A stretch of 64,000 nt of DNA. Source: an uncultured Pelagibacteraceae bacterium. GTDB taxonomy: Bacteria > Pseudomonadota > Alphaproteobacteria > Pelagibacterales > Pelagibacteraceae. Positions 36,940 through 39,745 of the stretch are shown in pieces (position 1 is the first letter of the stretch; each line of letters begins with the position of its first letter). Both the position numbers and the translations under genes were made by a program. The notes below the pieces were generated by a model. The model was given only the letters and a program-made list of their open reading frames with translations, had not been told where the DNA came from and made no database searches. The stretch lies in assembly GCA_902614835.1 (NCBI GenBank), contig CACMMU010000002.1, forward strand, positions 1-64,000, read 5' to 3'.

Positions 36940-37605
36940 ATGCCTAGTGTATTAGAAAGAATTAAAAAAATCCAAAGTGATATTTCTCAGCAACAGACTG
37001 ACTTTGCAATATCCCCTAAAATTATAGCGGTAAGTAAAACTTTTCCTCTTGAACATATAAAGCCTCTAGTAGATTTAGGACATATTCATTTTGGCGAAAA
37101 TAAAGTTCAAGAAGCCGAACATAAATGGACAACTATTAAAAAAGAAAATAAAAATTTAAAGATCCACATGTTAGGCAAGCTCCAGACTAACAAAGTAAAA
37201 AAAGCCATCTCTATTTTTGATTTTATCCATTCAGTTGATAATAAAAAACTAGCAGAAATTTTAAAAAAATATGAACACGAATTAAATAAAAAATTGTCAT
37301 ATTTTATACAAGTGAATTTTGCTGATGAAAAACAAAAATCTGGTTTACCTGCATCGGATGTATTTTCTTTTTATGAATATTGTAAAAATGATTTAAAACT
37401 AAATGTTATCGGGCTTATGTGTTTTCCTCCTTTTGGTGTAGATCCAACAAATTTTTTTAAAGAAGCTTATCAGTTAAACCAAAAAATTGGACTTAAAGAA
37501 CTTAGTATGGGCATGTCTAATGACTATTTACAAGCTATAAAACTAGGGAGCACCTATGTCAGAGTTGGGAGCGCAATTTTTGGTGAGAGAAAATCTAACG
37601 AATAA
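36940..37605 (+). CDS. YggS family pyridoxal phosphate homeostasis protein
   Basis: IIAVSKTFPLEHIKPLVDLGHIHFGENKVQEAEHKW, HMLGKLQTNKVKKAI, GSTYVRVGSAIFGER. Confidence 0.95.
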   Translation: MPSVLERIKKIQSDISQQQTDFAISPKIIAVSKTFPLEHIKPLVDLGHIHFGENKVQEAEHKWTTIKKENKNLKIHMLGKLQTNKVKKAISIFDFIHSVDNKKLAEILKKYEHELNKKLSYFIQVNFADEKQKSGLPASDVFSFYEYCKNDLKLNVIGLMCFPPFGVDPTNFFKEAYQLNQKIGLKELSMGMSNDYLQAIKLGSTYVRVGSAIFGERKSNE

Positions 37606-38086
37606 TAATTTTTGTTTTTTTTTTTATCTTTGGAAGAATCTTTAAAAAATCATTTTTTTTAATTGCTACGCAACCTTTTGTTGGACTAAATTTTTTATCT
37701 GTCAAATGTAAAAAAATTGCACTTCCTTTATTTCGTATTATGGGGTTCCTATTATAATTCATAACAAGAACAAGATCATATACACTTTTTTTTAAAAAAA
37801 GTTTTTCTGCACCAAAGGAAAAAGGGAATTTAATTAATCTATTATACATCATCGAATGGGGATCATCACACCAGCCCATATTTTTTTTTATATTTTTTTT
37901 AGGAATAGAAGTTTTAAAATGTTTAACCCTGTCTTTTCTGTATAACAACGACTCGAATCTAAATTCTCCAGATGGAGTGCATAAATCTCCCTCCCTCTTG
38001 TTTTTTGAAATCCCCCTTTTACCTATGGTACATTTTATCTTATAATGACCAATACGTAAAAATTTATTTTTTAAAATTATATGCAT
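37595..38086 (-). CDS. L,D-transpeptidase (YkuD) family protein
   Basis: CTIGKRGISKNKREGDLCTPSGEF, GSAIFLHLTDKKFSPTKGCVAI catalytic Cys motif. Confidence 0.87.
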   Translation of the reverse strand: MHIILKNKFLRIGHYKIKCTIGKRGISKNKREGDLCTPSGEFRFESLLYRKDRVKHFKTSIPKKNIKKNMGWCDDPHSMMYNRLIKFPFSFGAEKLFLKKSVYDLVLVMNYNRNPIIRNKGSAIFLHLTDKKFSPTKGCVAIKKNDFLKILPKIKKKTKIIIR

Positions 38087-38716
38087 AAAAATTCTTATAA
38101 AATTAAAGTTGCTTTCTCATGTGATAAAAGTTTTAGCAATTCAATTGAAGAATTAAAGCCTTTTTTAGGTTTTGATTTACATGAAATTCAGCTTCCAGAA
38201 GCCTTAAATTCATTAAATACAGGGAATCATGTTTTAATTGTGGATTCTCTACATGCCGGGGAGCTTCCTTTTGATAAAGTAAAAATTCCTAAAATTTTAA
38301 TACTTAAACAAAACGAGAGAAACACTTTTAACCATAAATTTGAAAACATTTTAAAATTACCAATTCATTTTGAGCAATTTAACCAAACAATTATAGACTT
38401 GTCACAAAAATATAAATTTCACCAAAATTCCTTATTAAAGGTGAAAGATTATACACTTGATAAAAATACGAGATTTTTAAAAAAGAAAGAAAATTTTGTT
38501 AAAGTTACAGAGAAAGAAATGCATTTTATTGAGGAGTTAAATAGATACTCAAAGCCATTGACCAAGGACTATATACTAAAAAATATATGGGGATACTCGT
38601 CAGATACCGATACTCATACTGTAGAAACGCATATTTATAGATTAAGACAAAAAATCAAAAATAAGTTTAATGATGAAGATTTTATTAAACATACGCCCGA
38701 AGGTTATTCATTTTGA
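38081..38716 (+). CDS. Response regulator-like protein with atypical receiver and OmpR-type winged-helix domain
   Basis: C-terminal KPLTKDYILKNIWGYSSDTDTHTVETHIYRLRQKIKNKFNDEDFIKHTPEGYSF; N-terminal half weakly receiver-like. Confidence 0.82.
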   Translation: MHKNSYKIKVAFSCDKSFSNSIEELKPFLGFDLHEIQLPEALNSLNTGNHVLIVDSLHAGELPFDKVKIPKILILKQNERNTFNHKFENILKLPIHFEQFNQTIIDLSQKYKFHQNSLLKVKDYTLDKNTRFLKKKENFVKVTEKEMHFIEELNRYSKPLTKDYILKNIWGYSSDTDTHTVETHIYRLRQKIKNKFNDEDFIKHTPEGYSF

Positions 38717-38829
38717 AAAAAAGAAATATTTTTGCCAAGGATCTGTTTACAAAAAAGTATAAGAGAAGAATTGTTAAACCTAGAAAAGGCAAGGGCAGTT
38801 TTAGCCGAAAAAAATTTAAGAAGCCCTAG
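38713..38829 (+). CDS. Small ArfA-like alternative ribosome-rescue factor candidate
   Basis: TTG start overlapping upstream TGA; MKKRNIFAKDLFTKKYKRRIVKPRKGKGSFSRKKFKKP*; matches the ArfA core motif LF..R.(V/I)xKxxKGKGS(Y/F)xRK; not in the supplied ORF track. Confidence 0.72.
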   Translation: MKKRNIFAKDLFTKKYKRRIVKPRKGKGSFSRKKFKKP

Positions 38830-39745
38830 CTCCAATTACTTGAATAATCTTTGAGGACATCTCCGTTCCTTTTTCAAGACATTGTTTTAATGACTTATTG
38901 TTTATGTATCCATGTAAAAAACCCGCTGCAAAAAGATCTCCAGCACCAGTTAAATCTACAATTTTTAAATTTTTTTGAATTCCAAATTCGGCTACCTCTT
39001 CATTATTGATTGCTACACTACCTTTTTCACCTCTCGTTATTACAATTAGTTTTCCCAAGTTTTTCCCAAAAGCAATTACATCTTCAAAATTCTTTGTATC
39101 AATAAGAGACAAAATTTCTTGTTCATTTGCAAACGTAATATCTAAAGAATTTTTAACCAAATCTAAAAAATTTACTTTGTGTCTATCAACACAAAACTTG
39201 TCCGACAAAGACATTGCTGTCTTTTTTGAATTTTTAATTGCTTTCTCAAAAGCTTTTTTAGGATACCCTTCATCCCAAAGGTAACCTTCAAAAAAAGTCA
39301 TTTCACTTTCTTTAATTGCTTCAATATCAATATCATTTTCATTAATTTTTCCAGCAATACCTAAAAAGGTAACCATAGTTCTTTCCGAGTCCGGTGTTAT
39401 TAAAATTAAACATGTTCCAGTCGGTATCTTCTCTTTTTTTTTAGAATAAAAGTACTTAACCTTTTCTTTTTTTAAACCATCTTCATATTTATTTCCTAAT
39501 TCATCATCATTTACTTTTCCTATAAAACCAACGTCATTACCAAGCTGTGAAAGACCAACAACTGAATTTGCAACTGACCCCCCAGAAATAGTTTCCTCTA
39601 TTTTGAGATTTGATAATAATTTTTTGAACTCATTTTCATCAACAAGTTTCATTGTACTTTTGGTCAATTTATTTTCTAAGATAAAATCATCATTTACTTT
39701 GCAAATAACATCAACTATTGCGTTTCCTATTCCCAAGATTTTCAT
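38816..39745 (-). CDS. Adenosine kinase / PfkB family sugar kinase
   Basis: GIGNAIVDVICKV, SGGSVANSVVGLSQLG, DLTGAGDLFAAGFLHGY. Confidence 0.92.
   Translation of the reverse strand: MKILGIGNAIVDVICKVNDDFILENKLTKSTMKLVDENEFKKLLSNLKIEETISGGSVANSVVGLSQLGNDVGFIGKVNDDELGNKYEDGLKKEKVKYFYSKKKEKIPTGTCLILITPDSERTMVTFLGIAGKINENDIDIEAIKESEMTFFEGYLWDEGYPKKAFEKAIKNSKKTAMSLSDKFCVDRHKVNFLDLVKNSLDITFANEQEILSLIDTKNFEDVIAFGKNLGKLIVITRGEKGSVAINNEEVAEFGIQKNLKIVDLTGAGDLFAAGFLHGYINNKSLKQCLEKGTEMSSKIIQVIGARAS

Follow-up and report, generated by a model that had tools for sequence, protein, structure and literature searches.

Gene arrangement and coding evidence

The window is a 64,000-nt stretch of DNA from an uncultured Pelagibacteraceae bacterium. 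On its + strand, an arfA-type gene of 38 codons occupies positions 38713..38829, with a TTG start at 38713-38715 and a TAG stop at 38827-38829; it is identified by a Pfam ArfA match, by orthologues and by pN/pS. The original prediction of this ORF, made from the sequence alone, was correct in every coordinate and in its translation. Upstream on the same strand is a regulator gene (38081..38716), whose earlier name of winged-helix regulator holds for an OmpR-type DNA-binding domain only (PF00486, E 2.4e-12) and is looser than was stated. Downstream on the - strand is a convergent PfkB-family kinase gene (38816..39745; PF00294, E 1.6e-44), for which adenosine kinase, the name first given, is plausible but not proven. 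A gene with a YkuD-type L,D-transpeptidase domain (37595-38086, - strand) lies just upstream of the regulator and is divergent from it.

The genes overlap as had been claimed. The arfA start and the regulator stop share the tetranucleotide TTGA (38713..38716, + strand), and arfA and the 3' end of the kinase gene share 14 bp (38816-38829). A Shine-Dalgarno-like AAGG (38700..38703, + strand) lies 9 nt before the TTG, within the last codons of the regulator.

This arrangement is widespread in related genomes. Of 108 distinct arfA loci, 99 have the regulator upstream and 96 the convergent kinase downstream. Start codons in 98 loci are ATG (54), TTG (31) and GTG (13), and the start overlaps the regulator stop in 79 of these; the overlap is 4 nt at 68 loci and 1 nt at the other 11. 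Such an overlap in most relatives is expected for translational coupling, and AGG, GGA or GAG occurs at most 15 nt before the arfA start in 60 of 99 loci. From this layout we infer that arfA translation is coupled to that of the regulator through termination-reinitiation. One arfA frame (L042:1964-2095) has no ATG, GTG or TTG ahead of the core, which suggests that it uses a less common start codon or that the sequence contains an error.

Substitution patterns support a protein-coding gene. Third codon positions are the most variable in the orthologue loci (entropy 1.12, compared to 0.48 and 0.34), which fits coding on the + strand in the arfA frame. Across the 108 loci pN/pS is about 0.23, an approximate value because synonymous sites are near saturation. 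The ORF is under purifying selection. Together with its conservation behind the same regulator, this agrees with the gene originally predicted.

The seven-A run (AAAAAAA) after the overlap and the weak TTG start could be taken to mean that the ORF extends the C-terminus of the regulator through frameshifting at an A-rich slippery site, or that it arose by chance. We consider either scarcely credible. Purifying selection excludes a chance ORF, and the spacing between regulator and arfA varies among loci (-4, -1, 0, +3 and more), contrary to a frameshifted extension. Loci from other genera (L003, L010, L025) have ATG starts and neither the regulator nor the kinase as a neighbor, indicating that arfA is an independent unit.

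Relationship to ArfA and other rescue factors

A profile HMM search of the ORF against Pfam-A matched a single family, ArfA (PF03889), with E 3.8e-5 and 23.5 bits. The window copy is 2 bits below the gathering cut-off of 25.5; orthologues at the same locus reach 31.5 bits. Within its own genome, the ORF is the sole PF03889 match (E 3e-4). Among 101 genomes comprising this one and its relatives, 56 match PF03889 at E<=1 and 38 exceed the cut-off, and the strong matches are short ORFs of the same family. An NCBIfam search of the ORF gave no match.

Searches in the reverse direction gave the same assignment. Profile A1, built from 22 SAR11 copies, detects the ORF in 167 of the 197 genomes of Pelagibacteraceae, and in 67 of the 77 that are of good quality, with E down to 1e-20; 10 of the 167 represent the DUF7230-type locus described below, leaving the form with the GKGS stretch in 157 of 197. 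Against the PDB, all significant A1 matches are E. coli ArfA (E 4e-6), and the next best match is unrelated (E 2.2). The broader profile A2 likewise matches only ArfA (E 1e-11). These scores should be read with caution, as short, basic, lysine-rich proteins can receive inflated scores. Homology to ArfA is shown, as are conservation of the ORF, its synteny and the purifying selection acting on it. Each of these, including the profile searches in either direction, supports an ArfA-type factor.

The ArfA core, residues N5-K33 (38725..38811, + strand), aligns without gaps to N14-K42 of E. coli ArfA (YhdL). Both proteins have the KGKGS[YF]xRK motif; here the KGKGSF part, residues 25-30 (38785..38802, + strand), is predicted to lie in the empty mRNA channel, the role described for E. 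coli (PMC5378476). Ten columns are invariant in 22 SAR11 sequences, including KGKGS, and R32 is also invariant. Tyr16 (38758..38760, + strand) aligns with E. coli F25, and this position is Y or F across the 22 SAR11 sequences. In E. coli, F25 contacts a pocket of RF2 formed by V198 and F217 (PMC6299226). The RF2 of the same genome (L245) retains both pocket residues. Its RF1 (L246), aligned by eye, has VHTSAAT at the matching place, with Ala at the F217 position and the Phe absent. An aromatic residue at F25, an intact pocket in RF2 and a missing Phe in RF1 together predict recruitment of RF2.

The SAR11 protein is shorter than E. coli ArfA (38 versus 72 aa): E. coli residues 1-9 and the 25 at the C-terminus are missing from it. 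Truncation of E. coli ArfA at Asn47 leaves it active, and shorter forms are inactive (PMC5378476). The last residue of the ORF aligns to position 47, and some relatives are 3 to 4 residues shorter. E. coli Ala18 aligns gaplessly with Lys9, and the invariant Ala8 is one residue off. Given this offset and the absence of a counterpart to residues 1-9, the N-terminal minidomain could activate RF2 in a different way. Off the ribosome, an ArfA of 38 aa would be expected to be disordered.

The original prediction described an ArfA/ArfT-like factor. Its ArfA part holds, given KGKGS and the aromatic residue at F25; its ArfT part does not, since the Francisella protein has neither (PMC6299226). An ArfT-like factor would account for the length (ArfT is also about 40 aa), the basic tail and the absence of a hairpin or other non-stop regulation element, as in arfT (PMC6299226). 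We nevertheless regard it as very unlikely. By its published description, ArfT reads KKGGSTNKK and a hydrophobic residue is missing at F25, whereas SAR11 has an invariant KGKGS and Y or F at that position; neither ArfT feature is present in our ORF. ArfT also works with both RF1 and RF2 (PMC6299226), and the organism's own RF1 lacks the pocket Phe.

BrfA of Bacillus subtilis is another small RF2-recruiting rescue factor. It is set apart by its published description: a different sequence, different N-terminal interactions and non-stop regulation (PMC8012679, PMC11633108). ArfA and BrfA both show species selectivity. ArfB is defined by a GGQ-containing RF-1 domain, and the 38-aa ORF has no GGQ. 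Another counterpart is gp30 of pelagiphage HTVC027P (NPVAKEVRTPKYKSQIIKPKKGRGSFKR), which has the same SAR11-type core and was named ArfA by PMC12753301. It differs in being phage-borne, in its longer N-terminus and in a KGRGS variant of the motif; its GenBank annotation is 'hypothetical protein'.

The comparisons establish homology, and the mRNA channel is also bound by small basic proteins of other kinds. The ORF could therefore encode a small, basic ArfA-family member that has a different ribosome or RNA role, such as hibernation or assembly, and takes no part in peptide release. This is highly improbable in our judgment, because the channel tail and the RF2-contacting aromatic residue are among the most conserved parts of the protein. 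Returning to an ArfA-type rescue factor, we infer both the rescue activity of SAR11 ArfA and its dependence on RF2 from these sequence comparisons.

Expression and predicted role in ribosome rescue

E. coli arfA likewise lies behind a regulator gene (zntR), with a convergent neighbor (mscL) overlapping it by 4 bp. This layout (L334:3932-4150) is the same as in SAR11, with unrelated neighbors. Only in SAR11 does the start overlap the regulator stop. The two genes also differ in that E. coli arfA has an in-frame hairpin, which makes its mRNA non-stop and places it under tmRNA control (PMC8012679). A fold scan of 45 SAR11 arfA loci found no hairpin (mean z about 0), and best-window fold energies averaged -5.3 over 40 loci. 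As a positive control, the same scan found the E. coli hairpin at -26.3 kcal/mol (z -6.1). The absence of a terminator or hairpin inside the ORF, noted in the original prediction, was thereby confirmed. Two candidate structures were rejected: a GGGC...GCCC hairpin in the window copy is not significant (z -0.46), and a weak terminator-like stem on the - strand (38833-38820) is no more than chance would give (1 found against 0.9 expected).

The non-stop mRNA typical of studied ArfAs is therefore not indicated here, with no ORF hairpin and no terminator on its strand. Non-stop expression is a regulatory hallmark and lies outside the definition of the ArfA sequence family. The ORF also lacks the hydrophobic tail of E. 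coli ArfA. As it has neither the C-terminal extension nor the hairpin, trans-translation probably does not shut it down, and it would be made at a steady low level. It is most likely a constitutive rescue factor without non-stop feedback.

A different form of control could arise from the convergent genes, if an RNA duplex of arfA and kinase transcripts were cleaved where the genes overlap. The two 3' ends overlap in loci related to the window, and antisense cross-talk has been described for the convergent E. coli arfA/mscL pair (PMC10070815). We think this regulatory variant unlikely: many relatives have no arfA/kinase overlap, with the kinase ending up to 54 nt past the arfA stop, and SAR11 has no hairpin of the E. 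coli type.

ArfA frees ribosomes stuck on broken messages. In the mechanism that we propose for SAR11, translation of the regulator mRNA would lead by termination-reinitiation to the ArfA peptide. When a ribosome stalls at the 3' end of an mRNA, the basic tail of this peptide (KPRKGKGSFSRKKFKKP) would insert into the empty mRNA channel. The segment around Y16, in the middle of the peptide, would pair with the beta-sheet in domain 2 of RF2 and recruit RF2, whose GGQ would hydrolyse the peptidyl-tRNA even though no stop codon is present.

The main rescue system is common in these genomes. An alpha-type tmRNA was found in 49 of 61 genomes and SmpB in 53 of 61; the assembly containing the window, which is 79% complete, has SmpB and no tmRNA match. 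A search for RF-1 domains in this genome and its relatives gave at most 2 matches per genome, all in frames of at least 223 aa, with no frame of ArfB size. This indicates that ArfB is absent, which would leave ArfA as the sole rescue backup in the lineage. We consider it very probable that the ORF is a translated, minimal ArfA, produced by termination-reinitiation and acting as an RF2-recruiting backup, or partner, to tmRNA-SmpB.

Distribution, DUF7230 and phage relatives

A 2021 review confines ArfA to some of the beta- and gammaproteobacteria (PMC8012679), and a census from 2024 found it in none of 2,376 Alphaproteobacteria (PMC11633108). The ArfA mechanism itself is known. New here are the alphaproteobacterial hosts, a form that is naturally minimal and seems to be unregulated, its predicted coupling to a regulator and its connection with DUF7230. 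Our literature search covered open-licence papers, and individual SAR11 copies may already carry the ArfA name somewhere.

Some Pelagibacteraceae genomes lack the gene. In four genomes of the same genus without the ORF, the kinase gene was likewise not found, which is consistent with missing assembly sequence. Five near-complete genomes of another genus and two of a third have the kinase and a regulator-like frame with nothing between them; these gaps are clean losses. Four near-complete genomes (G045, G053, G101, G134; L238, L235, L239, L240, respectively) have neither the GKGS nor the DUF7230-type form at E<=1, so arfA is not indispensable everywhere. They apparently rely on tmRNA-SmpB alone or on some other factor.

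Outside the family, relatives are sporadic: across the class, 36 of 385 genomes match profile A2, a count that includes this genome and other SAR11. ArfA-like ORFs occur in other Alphaproteobacteria (L218, L219, L223, L226, L227), some with longer tails. Possible hairpins were seen in L218, L223 and L227 (z about -3 to -3.5), and these genes could be non-stop regulated. In the sister SAR11 family, 13 of 14 genomes have a weaker candidate, about 44 aa long, that stays below Pfam significance. In these loci (L320-L332) a conserved basic ORF of 43-60 aa, for example NPIARxLRTxKFRPKKVxNKKK, gives a weak ArfA/DUF7230-like match; it sits behind an SDR-like gene in both loci inspected.

Some SAR11 genomes carry at another locus a relative without the GKGS stretch, for example MKRNPVAKALRTPKFKKRIIKDKKKYNRKK... 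(loci L253-L257, L233, L318 and L319 are DUF7230-like in this way). This form matches DUF7230 (PF23876) with E 8.5e-6 and 26.2 bits, just below the cut-off of 27, and a relative from another alphaproteobacterium scores 42.4. DUF7230 shares with the SAR11 ArfA the plan NPxAxxLRxPKYxxRVVKxKK...YxRK, lacks the GKGS stretch and is about 3 residues shorter there. A profile of the DUF7230-like form (A3) significantly matches nothing in the PDB but E. coli ArfA (E 4e-4), and it aligns with A1 at 98% probability.

The two forms exclude one another. Of the 197 genomes, the GKGS form is present in 157 and the short form in 13, with none having both, so that SAR11 relatives of DUF7230 appear only where the GKGS arfA is missing. 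The expected overlap is 10.4 (P 1.7e-10, which overstates the exclusion because the genomes are related), and the pattern spans at least two genera. That the forms never co-occur suggests that DUF7230 is a rescue factor too. We found no paper on DUF7230 among the open-licence literature.

Relatives also occur in viruses. A tblastn search of the ORF against phage records gave no match, possibly owing to the low-complexity filter, but a pattern scan of viral contigs found 169 stretches that encode relatives. At 80 viral loci (L135-L214), ArfA-like ORFs of about 35-90 aa have cores of the type NPxAKxVRTPKYKxRVVKPKKGKGS[YF]xR; in L200 and L202 the motif lies inside a protein of about 136 aa. One of the viral copies nearest to SAR11 (L136, 76%) also encodes a tail-fibre protein. 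The family phrog_20887, of unassigned function, matches the SAR11 type (E 1.1e-5).

A wider interpretation, to which we give about even chances, is that Alphaproteobacteria, SAR11 included, have a wide family of miniature rescue factors of the ArfA class. Its GKGS and DUF7230 forms would be interchangeable, DUF7230 would rescue ribosomes without the canonical channel motif, and marine phages would carry the GKGS form.

Few bacterial groups in the ocean are as abundant as SAR11. A family-wide ArfA that is hairpin-free, and natively about as short as the truncations still working in E. coli, is predicted to back up trans-translation in SAR11. This raises the question of why a streamlined genome retains a rescue factor that would be always on. 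It also offers a function that can be tested for DUF7230 and numerous small phage genes.
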